Shown here: positions 27,972-48,568 of the stretch, piece after piece
How the letters are laid out: every line of letters starts with the position of its first letter
Position numbering within the stretch: position 1 is the first letter of the stretch
Assembly (NCBI RefSeq): GCF_000510645.1
Contig: NZ_KI783301.1
Location: 2,425,151 to 2,489,150 of the forward strand
DNA: 64,000 bases
Direction of reading: 5' to 3'
Source: Thermicanus aegyptius DSM 12793
GTDB taxonomy: Bacteria > Bacillota > Bacilli > Thermicanales > Thermicanaceae
Position numbers and translations under genes: made by a program
Notes under the pieces: model-generated
Seen by the model: only the letters and a program-made list of their open reading frames with translations
What the model was told of the DNA's origin: nothing
Database searches by the model: none

Positions 27972-28606
27972 TTAGTTTTCCGAAAATCCTGTATCATAGT
28001 AATAAACTTCTACTGCTCCTGTATAGTTAGAATTGGCATATCGAACTTCTGTATTAAAAAATTGATAATACCCCCAATAGCTTGAATAGGCCTTTGTCTG
28101 CCAAAAGCCCCAATAAGAAGCATCAGGAATGGCCCTATTAATTTGTTCCACAAAAAACTGTGTAGTAGCTTCTACAACCGCTGCCCAAAAAGGAGTAGGT
28201 ACCCTGGAAGCCACATATGCCCCCACATAGTTTACCGCATATCTAACTACTTCCTTGTCGACTGTATTATAAAAAGTCCTATAATATGGACCACCAACTG
28301 TAATACCTCCGCCATTTTCGTCTACAGGAATGGAATAAATAACCGAATCACTCTGAGGACTAAAATTGTAAAGCTTTATTGCTTGGGCGTTTGAATCAAA
28401 AGCTCGCATTTCTTGTTCCGTCAACTTGTGATTCGTGACCACAGTTACTTTCACACCATTATTCATCCAACTTTGTTCAAGCCATTCATTACCGTTAACT
28501 TCAGTTTTTTTAATGTTAACTGGACATCAGCAGTTAAAACATGACTACCAAGAACTAAAACTAGCATCACTGCTACAAAAGGGAGAATAAAAGTTTTTCT
28601 AAACAT
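27972..28606 (-). pseudogene. Secreted protein, frameshifted (geobacillin-26-like?)
   Basis: A start ATG at 28606 follows AAGGAGTAGGTTCT and encodes a clear signal peptide (MFRKTFILPFVAVMLVLVLG, then SHVLTAD). After about 33 codons the frame is lost at a run of seven A (28505-28511 on the plus strand). One extra base there would join it to the downstream frame, which continues EVNGNEWLEQSW then MNNGVKVTVVTNHKLTEQEM to the stop at 27972, about 212 aa in all. The mature part is rich in Tyr, Gly and Asn and contains ITVGGPYYRTFYNTVDKEVV. From memory this resembles the geobacillin-26 group of secreted antibacterial proteins, but I cannot verify that. The slip could be a true mutation, a sequencing error, or phase variation at A7. 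Confidence 0.6.
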
Positions 28607-35552: not shown

Positions 35553-37001
35553 TTAAGCACTTTCTTTCGGTTGTTTCCTTTTTCTTTTTAACGAGATCTT
35601 TTCCCTGGAAGGTTTCGTCCTTTTCCAGGTGACCGTTTTCTCTACCGCCAGCACCCGGGAGAATGTCATGCGGCGTTTTGGTTTTATGTTTCGCCGTACC
35701 AACCTAGACTTTGGAGGGCTCTTTCTTATCGGTGCAACTTTTTTTCGTCTCTTCTTTTTTGTTGAAGTTGAAGTGGCTTTTTTTTGTTTCACAGGAGCAG
35801 GGGGGAGTTTACCTCCCGGTATCTCAGCCAGGGGCACAGGGAAGGAGGAAGGATCATCCGGCAGAGCGGCGGGGTATTCTCCAAGGGGGTAGTTATCCAT
35901 CTCCCGCTCAAGTTCGGCCAGAACCTGCCATTTGTTTCTCTCCGTGGCTAAGATTCTTCTCAGAATCGGTTCCGCCATCGTATCCAGGAATGGACCGGGT
36001 TCGTACACGATTTCCTTGATGTGTTTATAAAACTCATTCGGAAATGCCATATCGATTAACAACAATTCATAGGTTTGCCGATCAAGGGGGTTTGCCTGAT
36101 GATAGGCGTGAATCACCGTTCTGATCCACGTAAGGTCCCAAAATCCCATATCGTCCATGGTACTGGTAATGATTTTCCTTAAGTCCCGAATGGGAAAATC
36201 ATAGGCCACTCCATCCAGGTCGATCACCCAAATCCCGCCCGGGCCCATCTGCCCATTGGACCAGCCAAAATCCTGATGGGCCAAACCCCAGTAAGGACCG
36301 CCCATAGCTGCCATCTTCAAGTAGGAGGAGTTTTGAAGACGCTCTAAATATTCCCTCGCTTGCCGTTCAAATTGTCCCACCGCCGTTAACAGCAACGAAC
36401 TGGAAGGTTTATCGCGGTAAGCCTCGGCAAGATCCCGAAACCACCCCATTTTCGAGATCACCTTCTTATACTGAGCCGGCCATTTGTGCAATCTCGAAGA
36501 GTATCGTGAGCCCTGGGGGGGGACATAACCTTTTGATAGATGATGGAATTGGCCCAATCCATGACAAAGCGTGGCGGCTCCATTCAACGTGATTTTCGAA
36601 ACCGGAGATAAGGGTTCTATCCAATCGGTGACGATCCAAAGTTTTCCTCCGGCTTCCGTGTATAGATGATCTTCCTTTGTCCGCACGAGGGCGGGAACGC
36701 GGGCCCCCTTTTTCACCAAATACTCTTGCGCACCGATGCTGAAGAGACTTCGATCCGGTTTTCGATGCAAAAGTTTTAAGCTGCGTGGGCCGTGACTCGT
36801 TGCAAGCTTCCAAATGGCTCCACCCTTATCCGGTTTTGCCGTTACCAGACTCATGGAGTGAACATTCATCTCATACCTGGTGAGAACCTGGCGGGCGATG
36901 GATTCGACCTCCGGAGGGACATATTGTTCAAGCTGTCCTTCCGATAAACCTTTTGGATTGTGGGTATCCCAACGCTCAATGTGATACTGACCTATGGCCA
37001 T
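35553..37001 (-). CDS. CotS-family spore coat protein with long basic tail
   Basis: 482 aa. The core resembles the CotS/CotI/YutH group (aminoglycoside-phosphotransferase fold). The catalytic motif GLAHQDFGWSNGQM keeps the H-x-D-x4-N pattern and VIDLDGVAYDFPIRDL keeps the metal-binding Asp, so kinase chemistry is possible. The last ~70 residues are a Lys/Arg-rich low-complexity tail (KKKRRKKVAPIRK, KSRLVRRNIKPKRRM). Start ATG 37001 follows AGAAGGTGCGAATTGG. Lies next to a UDP-sugar dehydrogenase, glycosyltransferase and epimerase, an arrangement like B. subtilis ytcABC-cotS. Probably made in the mother cell and deposited in the coat. Confidence 0.82.
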   Translation of the reverse strand: MAIGQYHIERWDTHNPKGLSEGQLEQYVPPEVESIARQVLTRYEMNVHSMSLVTAKPDKGGAIWKLATSHGPRSLKLLHRKPDRSLFSIGAQEYLVKKGARVPALVRTKEDHLYTEAGGKLWIVTDWIEPLSPVSKITLNGAATLCHGLGQFHHLSKGYVPPQGSRYSSRLHKWPAQYKKVISKMGWFRDLAEAYRDKPSSSLLLTAVGQFERQAREYLERLQNSSYLKMAAMGGPYWGLAHQDFGWSNGQMGPGGIWVIDLDGVAYDFPIRDLRKIITSTMDDMGFWDLTWIRTVIHAYHQANPLDRQTYELLLIDMAFPNEFYKHIKEIVYEPGPFLDTMAEPILRRILATERNKWQVLAELEREMDNYPLGEYPAALPDDPSSFPVPLAEIPGGKLPPAPVKQKKATSTSTKKKRRKKVAPIRKSPPKSRLVRRNIKPKRRMTFSRVLAVEKTVTWKRTKPSREKISLKRKRKQPKESA

Positions 37002-37193
37002 CCAATTCGCACCTTCTTTTTTGGAAAAATCGGACCGGACTTCCAAGAAATTTTCCCCTGCTTATCTATATGCGGTTGCCTTAGGGAAAGCTACTCAATA
37101 AAAACAGAGGAATCAATCGGGCCGCCTTTCTTGAACGGATGGGAGCATCCCTTGATTTGACCCGGTCCTCTTCTCATCGCCTCGGTTTCCTCC

Positions 37194-38489
37194 TCACCTT
37201 CCTATCCCCCGATACTGAAATCCTGCTTCGATGATGAGCCCCTTGTCTAACATATTCCGGCCATCGAAAAGGACAGGTTCCCTCATCACCTCACCTATTT
37301 TTTTCCAGTCGATACGACGATAATCCGGCCAATCGGTGTTGATCATGATCGCGTCGGCTCCCTCTGCCGCTCGCTCCGGCGTTTCGTACTGTTTCACCCC
37401 TTCGTCGCCAAGTTCCTGGGGGAGTCTCGCCACAGGATCATGGACCGCCACCGACGCTCCTTTTTGTAATAAGCGCCGAATCAGATGAAGAGAGGGGGAT
37501 TCCCGTAAATCATCGGTGCCCGGTTTAAAGGAAATCCCGAATACCGCCACCGTTTTTCCTTGAAACGAGCCGATGATCTTCTTTAATTGCTTCAGCGCAT
37601 AAACCTGCTGTTGGCGATTTACGGCGGCTGCCCTTTCCAAGATCGACAATTGACCATGATAGCTCCTCGCGGTATGGAGAAGGGCCTCTACATCTTTGGG
37701 AAAACAGGATCCGCCATATCCGATGCCGGCCTGGAGGAAACTCCCACCGACCCTCGGATCGAGTCCGATTCCGGAAGCGACGTCCTTCACATCCACCTCC
37801 ACCTTGTCGCATAGTCTGGCCAACTCATTGATGAAAGATATTTTTACGGCCAAGAAGCTGTTCGCCGCATATTTAATCATCTCCGCAGTCCTGGGTGTTG
37901 TGACGAGCATAGGGCACTTCATCGATTGATAGAGATGCCGCAGCATGGCGGTAGCACGATGGCTATCGCTTCCAATGACGATACGATCCGGCTGAAGCAC
38001 ATCCCGCAATGCGGAACCTTCTCTCAGAAATTCCGGGTTGGAGACGACATCAAACGGAACGGCGCCCTTTTTGGGTTGTGCGTCCCGAATCCACCGCACG
38101 ATTTTTTCCTGGGTTCCGATGGGGGAAGTGCTTTTATTTACGATCAACGTATAGTTTCGCATATATCTTGCAACAGTTTCGGCTGCCATTTTTACATAAC
38201 TTAAATCTGCGCTTCCATCCTCTTTGGCCGGTGTCCCGACACAGATGAAGATGACCTCCTGATTCTGAATCGCTTCTTCCGCTTTCGTGGTAAACCGGAG
38301 ATTTCCTTTCCCGAGCTGTTTTTGTAGAAATTCCTCCATATCCGGTTCAAAAAAAGGGAGATGGCCGCTATTGAGCAGGGTAATGATGCGATCCTCCTTG
38401 TCCAATCCGGTTACATTCCAGCCCATATGGGCTAATGCGAGGGCGGTGGCCGTTCCAACATATCCCGTTCCGATGATTAAAATCTTCAT
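37194..38489 (-). CDS. UDP-glucose/GDP-mannose dehydrogenase family (YtcA-like)
   Basis: A 431-aa NAD-dependent nucleotide-sugar 6-dehydrogenase. N-terminal Rossmann motif IIGTGYVGTATALALAHMGW, VSNPEFLREGSALRD, the catalytic Cys in AGIGYGGSCFPKDVEAL, and the C-terminal domain VAVFGISFKPGTDDLRESPS. Probably makes UDP-glucuronate for a coat polysaccharide. Precedes the CotS-like gene with a 190-base gap and diverges from the poly-aspartate gene over 260 bases. The best Bacillus counterpart by context is YtcA. Confidence 0.9.
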   Translation of the reverse strand: MKILIIGTGYVGTATALALAHMGWNVTGLDKEDRIITLLNSGHLPFFEPDMEEFLQKQLGKGNLRFTTKAEEAIQNQEVIFICVGTPAKEDGSADLSYVKMAAETVARYMRNYTLIVNKSTSPIGTQEKIVRWIRDAQPKKGAVPFDVVSNPEFLREGSALRDVLQPDRIVIGSDSHRATAMLRHLYQSMKCPMLVTTPRTAEMIKYAANSFLAVKISFINELARLCDKVEVDVKDVASGIGLDPRVGGSFLQAGIGYGGSCFPKDVEALLHTARSYHGQLSILERAAAVNRQQQVYALKQLKKIIGSFQGKTVAVFGISFKPGTDDLRESPSLHLIRRLLQKGASVAVHDPVARLPQELGDEGVKQYETPERAAEGADAIMINTDWPDYRRIDWKKIGEVMREPVLFDGRNMLDKGLIIEAGFQYRGIGR

Positions 38490-38750
38490 AGTTATCTCGA
38501 AGATGAAAACGGATGTTCGGATATCCGTTCACTTCTTCTCACCCGACTTTCTTCAATTGTAAATTCTTTGTTAAATAGTATGATGAAACGATATGTTGTA
38601 GCGGGCCTTTGTTAACGGGCCCTTTATGTTTATAACCATTTCTATATGAAATCCATGTTTGTCTTCCTGTACTCATCCATGCTCATGTCAAAAAAGGGAA
38701 TACAATATACCATTCTTCAAAAATTTTTCGATGAAAGGATGGGTTGAAGG

Positions 38751-39287
38751 ATGCGTGTGAAAGTTTCGCCTGTAAACCTGACTGAGGAGACGAAAGAGAA
38801 AGAGAGCGAAGATAGATTATCTCCGTCTGCCACGGAGGAAGAGGAAGAGATGAAGAAAGCCGGAACTTCAGGTTATGAGGACAAAAAAGAAGACCGCAAC
38901 CAGGATGGAGACGACGATGATGACGACGATGACGATGACGATGATGACGATGATGACGACGATGACGATGATGACGATGACGATGATGACGATGACGATG
39001 ATGATGACGATGACGACGATGACGATGATGACGATGATGACGATGATGATGACAAGGATGGCGATGACGGTCACGGTCAAGTTGCTGACAATAAGAATAA
39101 CGGAGGATCAGGGAGAGAAAAACCGGAAATCACGCAAACCCTTTCCCCCACCAGGAGTACCAAGAAGTTTACAAACAAAGAGCCGAGAAATAAATCCTTG
39201 CGAAATGGAAAGAAGCAGTCTAAAGTCTCCACCGTTTCACTAAGCACAAAAAAAAGAAAAAAAGGGGGCAAGTCAAAAAGAAAATAG
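38751..39287 (+). CDS. Poly-aspartate low-complexity protein
   Basis: A 178-aa protein with an unusual layout. Residues 1-53 are acidic and charged (TEETKEKESEDRL, TEEEEEMKKAG, DKKEDRNQDG). Residues 54-101 are 48 consecutive aspartates, encoded by mixed GAT/GAC codons. Then a short KDGDDGHGQ spacer and a basic tail ending STKKRKKGGKSKRK. No signal peptide, no membrane segment, no recognisable domain. A weak GAAGG site precedes the ATG. Neighbours are coat-glycan genes on both sides. I do not recognise a family; a coat matrix or calcium-binding role is inference. Confidence 0.7.
   Translation: MRVKVSPVNLTEETKEKESEDRLSPSATEEEEEMKKAGTSGYEDKKEDRNQDGDDDDDDDDDDDDDDDDDDDDDDDDDDDDDDDDDDDDDDDDDDDDDDDDKDGDDGHGQVADNKNNGGSGREKPEITQTLSPTRSTKKFTNKEPRNKSLRNGKKQSKVSTVSLSTKKRKKGGKSKRK
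38910..39053 (+). repeat. 144-bp GAY trinucleotide tract
   Basis: Forty-eight successive GAT or GAC codons (38910-39053) with irregular order of the two. Simple-sequence DNA of this length can slip, so copy number may vary among strains. Confidence 0.97.
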
Positions 39288-39411: not shown

Positions 39412-40554
39412 ATGAAGGTTTTAATGATCAGTACGGAAAAGCTTCCGGTCCCCAATATTCGAGGCGGAGCCATTCAGACTTATATTTGCGGTGTGATGGG
39501 CTTGCTTGCAAAACGGCACAAAATCACCATTCTCGGAAGGACGGATCCCGACTTGCCGGTTGACGAGATATCGGGAGGGATTCGCTTTGCCCGTGTCGAA
39601 TCCAATGGCCAGTTTGATGTCTACCGGAAGAATGTGATTGATTTTCTGAAGAGAGCTAAAAATCCTTACGATCTCATCCATATGTTTAATCGTCCCAAAT
39701 TGGTGATCCCGGTGCGGCAGGTATATCCCGATGCCCGTATCCTCTTAAGCATGCACAACGATATGTTCAATCCCGGGAAGATCAGCCGGAGTGAAGGGGA
39801 GGCCGCCGTCGAGGAGACGGAAAGAATCATTACGATTAGCGATTTTATTGGAGAAAAGATCTGTAAAGATATTCCCAAAGCGGTCGGCAAGACAAAAACG
39901 ATTTATTCCGGCGTTGACTTGAAACGGTTTATTCCCTGGTCCATGTCGGAACAGGCGCGGCTCACGAGAAATCGGCTGCGGGCGGAATACGGCTTGACCC
40001 ATAAGAAAGTGATCTTATTTGTCGGCAGGCTCACCCCTAAAAAAGGACCCCATGTACTGATCCGGGCGATGTCCTATTTGAAACAAAACAATGCGGCACT
40101 CGTCCTCGTGGGAGGTTCCTGGTACAGCGATAACACCATCACCGATTATGTGGCTTACGTGAAGGCTCTGGCTGCCCGCTCCCCGCATCCGGTAATTATC
40201 CCGGGGTATATTCCCACAGATCAGATTCATCAATGGTTTTCCGTTGGAGATGTGTTCGTTTTAACCTCACTGTGGGAAGAACCGCTGGCACGGGTCCTAT
40301 ATGAAGCGATGGCCTCCGGGCTTCCGATCCTGACCACCGCACGGGGCGGAAACACGGAAGTGGTGCAAAACAACGGCTTGATCGTGAAAAATCCGGAAAA
40401 CCCGCAGGAATATGCTGAGAAGCTCGATGAACTATTTTCCCATCCCAAACGCGGGCAACAAATGGGAATGAATGGGCGGCGCATGGCGGAAGAGCGATTT
40501 AGTTGGAACCGGGTGGCTGAGGAGATTTTACACGTGTGGGAAGGAAGCGGCTGA
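39412..40554 (+). CDS. Glycosyltransferase family 4 (YtcC/CotSA-like)
   Basis: A 380-aa GT-B enzyme. Start MKVLMISTEKLPVPNIRGGA at ATG 39412, preceded by GGAGGGGAAAGGA. The donor-binding half has VILFVGRLTPKKGPHVLIRA, HPVIIPGYIPTDQIHQWFSV and the E-x7-E signature in WEEPLARVLYEAMASGLPIL. Closest in context to B. subtilis YtcC and CotSA. Probably transfers a hexose or uronic acid for a spore-coat glycan. 39 bases separate it from the epimerase gene, so both are cotranscribed. Confidence 0.9.
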   Translation: MKVLMISTEKLPVPNIRGGAIQTYICGVMGLLAKRHKITILGRTDPDLPVDEISGGIRFARVESNGQFDVYRKNVIDFLKRAKNPYDLIHMFNRPKLVIPVRQVYPDARILLSMHNDMFNPGKISRSEGEAAVEETERIITISDFIGEKICKDIPKAVGKTKTIYSGVDLKRFIPWSMSEQARLTRNRLRAEYGLTHKKVILFVGRLTPKKGPHVLIRAMSYLKQNNAALVLVGGSWYSDNTITDYVAYVKALAARSPHPVIIPGYIPTDQIHQWFSVGDVFVLTSLWEEPLARVLYEAMASGLPILTTARGGNTEVVQNNGLIVKNPENPQEYAEKLDELFSHPKRGQQMGMNGRRMAEERFSWNRVAEEILHVWEGSG

Positions 40555-40593
40555 GATGTGGCGTTACACCGTTCGTCCAGGAGTTGGAAAACA

Positions 40594-41565
40594 ATGAGGA
40601 TTTTAGTAACTGGGGCGGCGGGTTTCATAGGCTCCCACCTCTGTGAACGATTGCTTCAAGAAAGAAGCCATGAAGTGATCGGAGTGGATGCCTTTGTCCC
40701 TACCACCCCAAGATGGATCAAGGAAAGAAATCTCTCATCTCTGGTTAAACAACCCGGATTCTTCTTGGTAGAACAAGATTTGCTCCATCTATCCTGGGAA
40801 AAGCATCTGGAGGGCATTGATGTGGTTTATCACCTCGCCGCGATCCCAGGGGTGAGATCGAGCTGGGGGGGAAATTTCCCCGATTATGTATCCAATAATA
40901 TCGTGGCTACCCAAAGATTATTGGAAGCCGTAAAGGACATCGCGCCGCAAAAGTTCATCTACATTTCCACCTCATCGGTCTATGGAGAAAAGTGGGGACA
41001 GATCGATGAATCGGCAAGCACCGAGCCTCTATCCCCATATGGAGTGAGCAAACTGACGGGAGAACATCTCTGCAGAATCTATCGGGCCAACTACGGCATC
41101 CCCGTCGTCATCCTCCGATATTTTACGGTTTACGGTCCCAGGCAACGGCCGGATATGGCATTCCATCGGTTTATACGAAAGGTGTTCGAGGGGAAGCCGA
41201 TCCCCGTGTTTGGAGACGGAATGCAGTCGCGTGATTTTACTTATGTCACCGATTGTGTTGAAGCCACCTATTCTGTGATGAATGCTGAAAACGTGATTGG
41301 AGAGACGATAAACATTGGAGGAACAGAAAGAGCTACCGTATTGGAATCCATTTCGATCTTGGAACAGTTGTTCGGTTATCCGATCCCTATTGACAAGAAA
41401 ACTGAAGCCCGGGGGGAGCCCAAGCATACATGGGCCGACATATCCAAAGCAGAAAGGCTCTTGGGTTATCGACCGAAGGTTTCCCTCCGGGAAGGGCTCC
41501 GCCTGGAAATAAAAGATTTGTCCCGATTATATCGGACTGATCATAGGAGCTTACCTGATCCCTAA
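40594..41565 (+). CDS. NAD-dependent nucleotide-sugar epimerase/dehydratase (YtcB-like)
   Basis: Extended short-chain dehydrogenase of 323 aa. NAD motif RILVTGAAGFIGSHLCERL at the N-terminus; catalytic YGVSK in LSPYGVSKLTGEHLC with upstream STSSVYGE; substrate loop FTVYGPRQRPDMAFHRFIRK. Fits UDP-glucose/UDP-glucuronate 4-epimerases. Start ATG 40594 has CCAGGAG upstream; the ORF's first codon at 40558 is not supported. Together with the dehydrogenase and transferase it makes a UDP-sugar branch like ytcABC. A bidirectional terminator follows. Confidence 0.9.
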   Translation: MRILVTGAAGFIGSHLCERLLQERSHEVIGVDAFVPTTPRWIKERNLSSLVKQPGFFLVEQDLLHLSWEKHLEGIDVVYHLAAIPGVRSSWGGNFPDYVSNNIVATQRLLEAVKDIAPQKFIYISTSSVYGEKWGQIDESASTEPLSPYGVSKLTGEHLCRIYRANYGIPVVILRYFTVYGPRQRPDMAFHRFIRKVFEGKPIPVFGDGMQSRDFTYVTDCVEATYSVMNAENVIGETINIGGTERATVLESISILEQLFGYPIPIDKKTEARGEPKHTWADISKAERLLGYRPKVSLREGLRLEIKDLSRLYRTDHRSLPDP

Positions 41566-45038: not shown

Positions 45039-46055
45039 TTATGGTCCGATCGGGTTTGTTTCGTGTTCGGATAATGCATTTTTGAGGAGGTTCCGCACCC
45101 TTTCCCTCTCCCCGGCTTCCACCACAAAGAAATAAAGGATATGGCCCTTGTACGGAAGGAATCGATCTTTTCCCGAAAGGGTGATGTTTTCAAGCTTGAT
45201 GATTTTATTTTCTTGATAATCGTGGGCCAGTCTTTCCAGTTCTTCTTGGGTTAAATCCGTCTTCACATGATCCCCCAGAATGTCCATGAGATCACTCAGG
45301 TTAAATAAGGTAAGATTCTTCTCCGCCTTCTTAAGCAACGCCCGCATCACCTGTTGCTGACGGGCAATCCTCTCAAAATCGGAATCATCCCTGCCGATGT
45401 CACTTTTCCGATAGCGGGCATAATCGAGGGCCTCTTTCCCGTTCAATCGTTGCTTCCCCGGTTTAAGGTTAATATCGGTGCCATCGGAAGGATCCCTGTA
45501 CTTCATTCTTTTCTTCACATCCACCTCAATCCCCCCAAGGGCATCGATCAGACGGCGGAAACCTTCAAAGTCGATGGTGATGTAGCGGTCGATGGAGATC
45601 CCCAGGAAGCTTTCCAGGGTATCCTCCACCAAGGGGACTCCGCCGAGAAACATCGTATGGTTGATCTTCTCATGTCCATACTTTATCGTTTTGATCCGAG
45701 TATCCCGGGGAATGGAGAGGAGGGTTACCTTATGGAGGATCGGATTAATCGCGGCGATCATCATGGTGTCCGAGCGGGCTTTCGCTTCTCCCCGTGAATC
45801 GATCCCCAAAATGAGGAGGGTAAAGGGACGAAGCTTCCGGCTCCGTTCCTCCCCTTTTTTAACCGCATTCCCCACACCAATGGGGGGAGGCTCCGGAACC
45901 AAGCTCATCTGCCGGTTCTCGGACCCTTCATCATAAATGCGGTCAAACAGATGCTTATATTGGTACATCCCATAAGCAAGGCTGATGAGCAAAAGGAGAA
46001 TCGGCACTCCCACAAAGAAAAGGAGGCTTTTTTTCCATTTGAGCAGCGCTCTCAC
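45039..46055 (-). CDS. LytR-CpsA-Psr (LCP) family wall-polymer transferase
   Basis: A 338-aa membrane-anchored phosphotransferase. One N-terminal membrane helix (LLFFVGVPILLLLISLAYGM). LCP core: LGIDSRGEAKARSDTMMIAA, LLSIPRDTRI, YGHEKINHTMFLGG, DALGGIEVDV, GKEALDYARYRKSD and ERIARQQQVM, with Arg and Asp residues that bind the polyprenyl pyrophosphate and Mg. Attaches teichoic acid or secondary wall polysaccharide to peptidoglycan. The frame starts at GTG 46055, close to AAAGGGG; the exact start is uncertain. Diverges from csaB, suggesting a shared wall-polymer task. Confidence 0.92.
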   Translation of the reverse strand: MRALLKWKKSLLFFVGVPILLLLISLAYGMYQYKHLFDRIYDEGSENRQMSLVPEPPPIGVGNAVKKGEERSRKLRPFTLLILGIDSRGEAKARSDTMMIAAINPILHKVTLLSIPRDTRIKTIKYGHEKINHTMFLGGVPLVEDTLESFLGISIDRYITIDFEGFRRLIDALGGIEVDVKKRMKYRDPSDGTDINLKPGKQRLNGKEALDYARYRKSDIGRDDSDFERIARQQQVMRALLKKAEKNLTLFNLSDLMDILGDHVKTDLTQEELERLAHDYQENKIIKLENITLSGKDRFLPYKGHILYFFVVEAGERERVRNLLKNALSEHETNPIGP

Positions 46056-46140
46056 CCCTTTCTAGCAGTTCTTTCAGTAATGCGCCACCATCGGATCGGG
46101 ATTCCCCAACACCTTTTCTTCGAGCGTGAAAAACGCCTCG

Positions 46141-46169
46141 TTTTCATCTCCTTACAGATCTGGTATACT
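46141..46169 (+). promoter_or_regulatory. csaB operon promoter
   Basis: TTTTCA (46141-46146), a 17-base spacer and TATACT (46164-46169) with TG one base before the -10 (extended form), 43 bases upstream of csaB. Confidence 0.6.
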
Positions 46170-46211
46170 AGGGTTTGTACGTGTTACGTAGTAAAGAAGG
46201 CAGGTCTTCCC

Positions 46212-47327
46212 ATGACCAAGATCCTCATATCCGGTTATTATGGATTTCATAATGCAGGGGATGATGCCGTTCTCTACGGGATTTATTCTTCCTTGAGGAA
46301 GCTGGATCCAACCGTAGAGGTGACGGTGCTGTCCAATTCCCCGGAAGAAACGATGCAACTATTTCAAATACATGCCGTAAACCGCTGGAACGCCCTGGAT
46401 ATCGTTAAGGAAATCCGCCGCGCAGATCTGGTGCTTTTAGGGGGAGGAACCCTTTTGCAGGACCGGACAAGTCCCCGAAGTCCTTTATACTATCTGGGGA
46501 TCGCCGGTTTGGCGAAAGGGATGGGAAAACCTGTCTTCTTTTACGGTCAGGGATATGGGCCCATCATTCACCCGTTTAGCAAGCGGATCATCCGCTTTCT
46601 CCTCAACCGGGTCGATGCAATCACGGTGCGGGATTCCCTTTCGGGGGAAGAGATGCGCTCCCACGGGGTAACGAAGGTTCCCATCTATGTGACGGCCGAT
46701 CCGGCCCTCACCATCGATCCCCTGGAAGCCGATCTGGAAGATGCCCGCAGGAGGTTGACAAAACATCAGGTGGATCCGGACGCTCCGATCGCATATATCG
46801 CCATTCGAGACTGGAAAGGGGAGGAGCACTTTAAAGAGGAATTGGCCCGTTGCGGCGACAATCTCTCCCGGTTAGGATGGCAGGTGGTTTTTCTCTCCAT
46901 GCAGTATCCCCATGATCATTCCCCATCCGTCGATGTAATGAGCAAGATGAAGAACCGGGCCGTTCTCATCGACCAGCCGTTAAACTTTAAAGAGATTATG
47001 AGCCTGATCGGATTAGGCCAACTTATGATCGGCATGCGTCTTCATGCTTTAATCCTGGCAGCCATTATGGGGGTTCCCTTTATCGCCCTCTCCTATGATC
47101 CCAAGATCGACCGTTTTGTAGAAAGCGTGGGGAAAAGTTCGCCCGTACGAATCGAAAACCTGGACGGAGATGCTTTGATGGAGGAGGTGAAGGAGATCCT
47201 CCTTCGCCTCCCGGAAGAACGGATGGAACTAAAGCAACGGATCGGTCCCATCACCGACCAGGCCTTCGAAAGCGCCCGGCTTCTCTATCGCCTTTTGGAA
47301 AAGAAGAAACAGGAGGAAAAACGATGA
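46212..47327 (+). CDS. csaB: Polysaccharide pyruvyl transferase CsaB
   Basis: A 371-aa GT-B-like enzyme that adds a pyruvate ketal to ManNAc of the secondary cell-wall polymer, creating the ligand for S-layer-homology domains. Signature: KILISGYYGFHNAGDDAVLY at the N-terminus, LLGGGTLLQDRTSPRSPLYY, GQGYGPIIHPFSKRII and IGMRLHALILAAIMGVPF. ATG 46212 follows AGAAGGCAGG; the frame is open 87 codons further up with no family similarity. Overlaps the next gene by ATGA. Implies a pyruvylated wall polymer, and probably SLH proteins encoded elsewhere. Confidence 0.95.
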   Translation: MTKILISGYYGFHNAGDDAVLYGIYSSLRKLDPTVEVTVLSNSPEETMQLFQIHAVNRWNALDIVKEIRRADLVLLGGGTLLQDRTSPRSPLYYLGIAGLAKGMGKPVFFYGQGYGPIIHPFSKRIIRFLLNRVDAITVRDSLSGEEMRSHGVTKVPIYVTADPALTIDPLEADLEDARRRLTKHQVDPDAPIAYIAIRDWKGEEHFKEELARCGDNLSRLGWQVVFLSMQYPHDHSPSVDVMSKMKNRAVLIDQPLNFKEIMSLIGLGQLMIGMRLHALILAAIMGVPFIALSYDPKIDRFVESVGKSSPVRIENLDGDALMEEVKEILLRLPEERMELKQRIGPITDQAFESARLLYRLLEKKKQEEKR

Positions 47328-48568
47328 AGAAATGGACCAACATACTCCTCTTCCTCTATCTTACTTACCCTCTCTTTGATTATCTGATCCGACGTTTTCT
47401 CCCCCTCCCCATCCTCCCCTCCATGTGGGATGAAGGCGTTCTCCTGATCCTCCTCGGGGCAGTCCTCTTCACTACCCTTTCCGGCGAGCGGAGGCTCCCT
47501 TCCCTTAAGGTACCCATGCTTGCATTTACCATGCTTGGCGCAGCCCACATCGTGATCGACATCCCTAATCTTGCCGCCGATTTAGAGGGATTTCGGGCTG
47601 TCTTTGAATATGTTCTCCTCTTTTTCATCGGTTACTATCTCATCGAGGATCATCGAAAAGCTATTCAGTCTCTGCATCTTATTTCCGCCGTCGCCACCTT
47701 GGCCGCTCTGGTAGGGTTTGCCCAAGTAGCGATGGGCGTGGAGACTCCCTCCAGTTGGACCGATGCGGCGGAGCAAGGGATTGTTCGGGCCTTCTCCTTC
47801 GTGGTAAGTCCCAATGTTTTGGGCAGCTATATGGCCCTCATGATTCCCATCGCCGTCGGTCTCTTTTTCTACGAAAAGAACGTCTGGCTGAAAGGCTATT
47901 ACGCCCTCGCTTCCCTCCTGCAGCTCGGGGCTTTTGTTCTCTCGGGATCGAGGGGAGCTTGGCTTGCCCTCCTCCTCTCCCTTCTTCTTATCTTTGCCCT
48001 GATCAATTGGAAGTGGGCCCTGGGGGGAGGAATGGCGGCAGTCCTCGGGGGATTTCTTCTCCCCCCCATCCGGTCACGAATCTTAAACCTCCTCTCCCCG
48101 GAGTACCTGGAAAAGAGCGCTAGTGACGGGCGGATCGCCCGCTGGTTGGGCGCTTATCATGAGATGCGTTTCGACCCCTTCTTTGGCCGGGGCATCGGCC
48201 ATTATGGAGGAGCGGTGGGGGACCGCTATTTTGGAACCACTTACGTGGACAGTTATTACTTTAAGACCCTGGCGGAATTGGGTCTGCCCGGCGTTTTGCT
48301 CCTCGCCTGGCTCCTTTTTTCGGTGGGATTTCTCCTCTACCAACTGTGGCGCACGACGAAGGGCAAACGGGAATTTTTCCTCCTGGGAGGGATCCTGATC
48401 GGGCTTATTGCGGTCATCTTCCATAACGGGGTCGAGAATATCTTCGAGGTGCCTTTCATGAACAGTTATTTCTGGTTTCTTACCGGCTTAATGCTCTCCT
48501 ACCCCTATTGGGGGGAACATGGAAAAATGGGAACCGAGGCGTTAAGCCAAGAAAGGAGGGCCGCATAA
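47324..48568 (+). CDS. O-antigen ligase/polymerase-like membrane protein
   Basis: A 414-aa polytopic protein with about ten hydrophobic segments. The Wzy_C/WaaL-like core is visible: VLSGSRGAWLALLLSLLLIF, a long outside loop with SDGRIARWLGAYHEMRFDPF, FGRGIGHYGG and YVDSYYFKTLAELGLPGVLL. Such enzymes polymerise or ligate lipid-linked glycans outside the membrane. Coupled to csaB by a 4-bp overlap and to the next gene by one base. In this operon it probably handles the secondary wall polymer; the exact reaction is inferred. Confidence 0.88.
   Translation: MKKWTNILLFLYLTYPLFDYLIRRFLPLPILPSMWDEGVLLILLGAVLFTTLSGERRLPSLKVPMLAFTMLGAAHIVIDIPNLAADLEGFRAVFEYVLLFFIGYYLIEDHRKAIQSLHLISAVATLAALVGFAQVAMGVETPSSWTDAAEQGIVRAFSFVVSPNVLGSYMALMIPIAVGLFFYEKNVWLKGYYALASLLQLGAFVLSGSRGAWLALLLSLLLIFALINWKWALGGGMAAVLGGFLLPPIRSRILNLLSPEYLEKSASDGRIARWLGAYHEMRFDPFFGRGIGHYGGAVGDRYFGTTYVDSYYFKTLAELGLPGVLLLAWLLFSVGFLLYQLWRTTKGKREFFLLGGILIGLIAVIFHNGVENIFEVPFMNSYFWFLTGLMLSYPYWGEHGKMGTEALSQERRAA

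Follow-up and report, generated by a model that had tools for sequence, protein, structure and literature searches.

A hyperacidic gene recurs in the CotS gene clusters of several spore-forming families, and the poly-aspartate gene described here occupies the corresponding place in Thermicanus aegyptius DSM 12793. This recurrence suggests that the spore shell contains a charge-based building material that has so far attracted little notice, and the conserved gene is of greater interest than the single ORF in the window (the whole 64,000-nucleotide stretch of DNA analysed) from which the search started. For the window protein itself, we see about an even chance that it is a hyperacidic, disordered coat protein, made late in the mother cell and acting as an electrostatic partner of the CotS tail and of its own basic C-terminal tail. 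The features of the window on which the argument rests are the following.

35553..37046, minus strand: CotS-family spore-coat kinase-like protein (BSK), 497 aa (TIGR02906, 279.5 bits against a cut-off of 173)
35556..35900, minus strand: C-terminal tail of CotS, 115 aa, Lys/Arg-rich with a net charge of +26, beyond the kinase domain
37194..38489, minus strand: ugd/ytcA-like UDP-glucose 6-dehydrogenase (PF03721/PF00984/PF03720, TIGR03026), head-to-head with the poly-Asp gene
38699..38707, plus strand: candidate -10 element AATACAATA, 43 bp before the poly-Asp start codon, one mismatch to the sigma-E/K-type CATANNNTA
38734..38739, plus strand: possible Shine-Dalgarno sequence AAAGGA, 11 bases before the ATG, read directly from the sequence
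38751..39287, plus strand: poly-aspartate protein gene, ATG start, 178 aa, with a charged N-terminal part, D48 and a Lys/Arg-rich C-tail
38910..39053, plus strand: tract of 48 Asp (residues 54-101), with tandem units of 9, 15 and 33 bp and GAT/GAC variation that is synonymous only
39054..39284, plus strand: C-terminal 77 aa of the poly-Asp protein, Lys/Arg/Ser/Thr-rich towards the end
39412..40554, plus strand: GT4 glycosyltransferase (CotSA/YtcC-like, PF00534); the ATG at 39412 is the likely start, and relatives begin at a matching Met
40558..41565, plus strand: NAD-dependent sugar epimerase (YtcB-like, PF01370)

The first-pass annotation had described the ORF at 38751-39287 as carrying 48 aspartates at residues 54-101, flanked by a charged N-terminus and a Lys/Arg-rich tail, with no known domain. 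The ORF and its Asp block are exactly as described, and the composition bears out the charged flanks. Pfam returned no domain and NCBIfam no meaningful family; the RNase E model of NCBIfam reached 19.9 bits against a cut-off of 1400, which is low-complexity noise. The computed net charge is about -38 at pH 7, with a pI of 4.1 and a molecular weight of 20.0 kDa. By the acidity criterion given below, this is the only hyperacidic ORF in the 64-kb window, with 40 of 40 residues acidic in its best stretch. Apart from D48, the 3.66-Mb genome has no stretch of 10 or more successive Asp codons. The C-terminal 77 residues have no significant relative in 60 related genomes, where only weak, composition-driven matches (E 0.02 or worse) were obtained, and a tandem-repeat search of this tail found none. 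A Ser/Lys/Arg-rich repeat protein of the CotG/CotB kind was also considered and rejected; the low-complexity block is pure Asp and the basic tail has no tandem repeat.

The D48 tract is encoded by 27 GAT and 21 GAC codons. When it is compared with itself at an offset of 33 bp, 12 of 111 positions differ, and all 12 are third codon positions, while in a non-coding repeat the changes would be expected to spread over all three. Because the 33-bp copies differ solely at third positions, the tract is, on this pattern, a protein sequence under selection, and the reading as an untranslated repeat is hard to reconcile with it. This bears directly on the least likely of the rival explanations, a spurious or decaying ORF that arose through slippage of a GAY repeat and has no protein function. 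Such an origin would fit with the tandem nature of the tract, with the N- and C-terminal parts having no significant relatives and with the window gene having no strong promoter. However, apart from the codon positions, equivalent acidic ORFs with sigma-K promoters recur in the same cluster of distant genera and none is found in random DNA of related genomes (both below), so that we consider this origin very improbable.

Upstream of the window gene, neither sigma-K nor sigma-E scoring identified a promoter, the fractions of shuffled sequences reaching the score being 0.70 and 0.14, respectively, and no sigma-70-type promoter was significant in the same shuffle scoring. The candidate AATACAATA element has no AC at the -35 spacing and is not significant on its own.

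The poly-Asp gene lies two genes from cotS, within the cluster of cotS, ugd, GT4 and epimerase genes. The earlier naming of these neighbours as a CotS-like protein, a UDP-sugar dehydrogenase, a glycosyltransferase and an epimerase is correct according to Pfam and NCBIfam, and the spore-coat context that it had proposed gains support from comparison. PMC2860764 describes cotS/ytaA-cotSA/ytcC-ytcA-ytcB-ytdA as a cluster that unites genes for spore kinases with those for spore glycans, and the CotS-type kinase fold, the CotSA/YtcC-like GT4, the UDP-glucose dehydrogenase and the epimerase are common to that cluster and the window. By gene content, then, the window cluster is the known cotS-ytc spore module, and a spore-coat setting of the poly-Asp gene is supported by the neighbouring sequences. 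Two differences from the published cluster stand out: the passages of PMC2860764 consulted contain no hyperacidic gene, its text nowhere mentions Paenibacillus or Brevibacillus, and the kinase fold of the window CotS is extended by a Lys/Arg-rich C-tail. In the alignment, the window CotS keeps the HQDxxxxN and IDLD motifs, and the catalytic motifs are kept in all four CotS proteins aligned. The T. aegyptius genome contains sigK and spoIVA, both above curated cut-offs, and thus the late sporulation machinery is present in this organism. No CotS relatives were found on plasmids.

Other surface and spore genes lie nearby. A GerA-type germination protein is encoded close to the poly-Asp cluster. 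At 45951-48568, close to an LCP-family protein, a CsaB-like polysaccharide pyruvyl transferase precedes an O-antigen-ligase-like membrane protein, and these form a second cell-surface glycan group near the spore cluster. A Tyr/Asn-rich ORF of 164 aa adjoins uvrC at 27972-28466 on the minus strand.

Further evidence comes from the relatives. With the CotS kinase domain as query, the class as a whole and the named genomes were searched, which gave a set of 80 named loci with flanking DNA. At these loci an ORF was called hyperacidic if a stretch of 40 residues contained 22 or more Asp/Glu and if these two residues made up over 25% of the whole. The first-pass annotation had proposed looking at the same locus in related spore-formers for homologues, and this search returned exactly one hyperacidic ORF in the cluster at 58 of the 80 loci, to which the window gene corresponds by position and composition. 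The carriers include Paenibacillus, Cohnella, Brevibacillus and Desulfosporosinus. By comparison, no hyperacidic ORF turned up in 400 kb of DNA taken at random from the chromosomes of T. aegyptius and of three Brevibacillus-group genomes. Pure Asp runs at the cluster loci reach 86 (Paenibacillus sp. J5C2022, L056), 80, 75, 74, 58, 55, 46 and 36 residues, and a run of at least 20 is found at 10 of the 80 loci; many of the other acidic proteins have Glu-rich or mixed D/E/S tails instead of pure Asp.

The arrangement of the genes varies between the groups. The acidic gene of Paenibacillus and Cohnella usually stands head-to-head with a ytdA-ugd-epimerase operon, while the window gene is divergent from ugd. 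In Brevibacillus the acidic gene precedes cotS and is read in the same direction. The order in Cohnella panacarvi (L104), acid< ytdA> ugd> cotS> GT4>, resembles that of the window in reverse. At about 18 loci the flanking DNA examined contains neither ugd nor epimerase, yet the acidic gene still adjoins cotS and GT4, and it therefore tracks the pair of CotS and glycosyltransferase. The GT4 adjoining cotS in the relatives has 53-65% identity, and UDP-glucose dehydrogenase alone as a query in the named genomes gave no relatives.

Many of the acidic genes have a promoter of the sigma-K type. The -35 AC and CATA-type -10 combination is a documented sigma-K signature (PMC3789822), and as a strict pattern we required AC, 15-18 bases and then CATANNNTA. 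This pattern precedes 26 of the 58 acidic ORFs, compared with 22 of 547 GC-matched control upstream regions, and many of the 22 control matches are the ytdA gene facing the acidic gene. The -10 element alone occurs at 40/58 acidic ORFs and 57/547 controls. A reversed control pattern is enriched too, but less (9/58 against 10/547), and shuffle scoring of the same upstream regions gave sigma-E promoters for 4/58 and sigma-70 promoters for 0/58. The median distance from promoter to start codon is 42 bp. Matches occur in all four genera, although the loci are related and p-values would overstate the evidence. Because sigma-K-type promoters are present in 26 of the 58, late mother-cell, coat-stage expression of the hyperacidic family is indicated at the level of sequence. 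By extension, we infer expression and a coat location also for the poly-Asp protein of T. aegyptius.

The acidic proteins of the relatives also share a small domain. One profile of the N-terminal 35-75 residues matches 53 of the 58 acidic ORFs and picks up five more loci, at which the acidic tail is weaker or missing, while nine representatives of the family gave no Pfam or NCBIfam match above cut-off. AlphaFold2 models this region with high confidence (pLDDT 92.4) as a small helix-strand-strand-helix-strand fold, for which the PDB gave no trustworthy match (the best Foldseek hit had E 0.26, and the best Z, 5.2, was shared with unrelated proteins). Examples of relatives that have both the cluster and a tailed CotS like the window are Paenibacillus paeoniae (L072:11306-11797, D74), Cohnella panacarvi (L104:5003-5392, D36) and Desulfosporosinus sp. 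BRH_c37 (L118:4570-4947, D58). However, proteins of this type have a helix-beta-beta domain at the N-terminus, and a sigma-K promoter is frequent upstream of their genes, while the window protein has neither and instead ends in a basic tail. Homology of the window protein to the family through this domain was ruled out by hhalign, in which the family profile gave no match to it, and the domain gave no match in the rest of the window or elsewhere in the T. aegyptius genome. Since it is without the family domain, the window protein is best described as a positional and compositional counterpart and not as a proven orthologue; common descent is unproven.

The same domain is found in two further settings. 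A paralogue in Cohnella faecalis (L061:7108-7704, minus strand) joins it to a Lys/Arg-rich tail in place of the acidic one, and is possibly a cationic counterpart of the hyperacidic proteins. In a genome that is probably Aneurinibacillus thermoaerophilus, whose CotS has no tail, the domain carries just a short acidic tail and is encoded away from cotS, behind a sigma-K-type promoter (L221:6530-6790, plus strand).

The presence of the acidic ORF coincides with the presence of a C-terminal tail on CotS. A tail of at least 60 aa is found at 74 of the 80 loci, and the acidic ORF at 58 of these 74 but at none of the six loci without a tail, in a count that ignores kinship. The tail-less proteins come from several lineages, i.e., Paenibacillus sedimenti, two Thermoactinomycetaceae, Aneurinibacillus, Anoxybacillus vitaminiphilus and one MAG. 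Where the acidic ORF is present, the CotS tail has a net positive charge at 55 of 58 loci and is zero or negative at three. The charges of tail and acidic partner are not correlated (Spearman coefficient 0.007; r 0.19 and not significant by independent contrasts), and a stoichiometric matching of the two is unsupported, as their charges do not scale together. Because the polyacid ORF is conserved alongside the CotS tail, the pairing points first to electrostatic assembly, and from this co-occurrence we infer a physical pairing of polyanion and polycationic tail.

We suggest that the poly-Asp protein would be made late in the mother cell alongside the CotS/CotSA-type glycan module. For its polyanionic D48 block, the most likely partners would be polycationic: the tail of CotS, rich in Lys and Arg, and the basic C-tail of the poly-Asp protein itself. 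Such binding would contribute to a dense, charge-cross-linked layer that holds CotS and the glycosyltransferase. With D48 and its own basic tail, the window protein would then be an ampholytic version of the coat polyanion. We judge this mechanism to be moderately likely. It can further be speculated, at somewhat less than even chances, that in several families part of the coat is an encoded polyelectrolyte complex, in which a sigma-K-controlled poly-Asp/Glu protein attached to a small domain condenses with the polycationic tail of CotS, and for which the divergent, ampholytic D48 protein provides the polyanion here.

A different role for the same block would be the binding of cations. Asp-rich proteins generally bind divalent cations, and the carboxylates of D48 could bind Ca2+, Mn2+ or Mg2+ within the coat and serve as an ion store, a barrier or a nucleation template. 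This elaborates the first-pass proposal that the block binds calcium or other cations, or templates mineral or matrix. The recurrence of Asp runs of up to 86 residues in the same cluster would agree with such a function. However, searches of Pfam and NCBIfam and of the composition gave no EF-hand and no repeat with defined ligand spacing, the Glu-rich or mixed D/E/S nature of many counterparts speaks for charge and not for a defined chelating geometry, and the link to a tailed CotS would be left unexplained. We regard cation binding or mineral templating as rather unlikely.

The acidic chain might instead control the CotS kinase or its recruitment, as a partner or a substrate-like regulator that occupies the basic tail or the active-site cleft. 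A precedent exists in the outer coat of Bacillus subtilis, where CotG promotes the phosphorylation of CotB by CotH (PMC7821199), and the catalytic motifs of the aligned CotS proteins and an acid gene that stays beside cotS even where the sugar-nucleotide genes are missing would be in line with it. On the other hand, PMC2860764 describes a frequent loss of catalytic residues among BSKs and a possible non-enzymatic role, and an acidic tract without Ser, Thr or Tyr is not itself a substrate. Regulation of CotS is thus an unlikely explanation, to be placed below cation binding.

Compared with electrostatic assembly by the hyperacidic proteins, CotB/CotG/CotH is also the nearest functional precedent, as highly charged, low-complexity coat proteins are there encoded adjoining a coat-organising kinase (PMC7821199). 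However, CotG and CotB are rich in Ser and Lys and owe their negative charge to phosphorylation alone, while the acidity of the window protein is encoded as Asp/Glu; CotH belongs to a different kinase family from CotS, and the window system has no sequence match to CotB, CotG or CotH. At locus L034, the protein adjoining cotS is presumably the counterpart of YtxO, a coat protein whose gene neighbours cotS in clusters of the Bacillus subtilis type. The likeness lies in a small-protein gene beside cotS; this probable counterpart is not hyperacidic and has no run of acidic residues.

If this reading is right, an apparently unnamed, recurrent class of coat proteins would be added to the CotS kinase/glycosyltransferase module, which is among the less understood of the coat, and the CotS tails would acquire a simple physical role. 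Coat assembly driven by the charge of encoded polyacid and polybase partners would be a testable route. A search of open-access papers for poly-Asp, aspartate-rich or coacervate together with spore coat found none, a weak kind of absence. Few of the genomes searched have pure poly-Asp stretches of 46-86 residues, which could serve as ion-binding or self-assembling materials.

Long Asp runs also occur outside the cluster. Among 399 genomes of the class, six have a run of at least 20 Asp, all of them among the 55 genomes with a close CotS relative. In the five genomes other than that of T. aegyptius the Asp-20 tracts lie away from cotS, and since three of them lie in a penicillin-binding-protein/acsA neighbourhood, poly-Asp by itself is not specific to the cotS cluster. 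These three, from genomes of one genus, are a second kind of poly-Asp protein (L217:5552-6346 and L218:5583-6479, plus strand; L219:6417-7052, minus strand), with a Lys/Arg-rich N-terminus, a short conserved middle, a long Asp tract and a basic or His/Lys-rich end; the genes lie between penicillin-binding-protein genes and an acsA-like gene, with CATANNNTA 36-42 bp upstream. A CotS-bearing genome encodes, away from cotS, a 383-aa Asp/Glu repeat protein with CATACGATA 38 bp upstream (L220:5090-6241, plus strand). Overall, five of six acidic/poly-Asp or domain-bearing genes at other loci have CATANNNTA 36-70 bp upstream. In a Brevibacillus-group genome, an apparent signal peptide is followed by an Asp run (L216:5531-6526, minus strand), and this gene has no sigma-K-type element.
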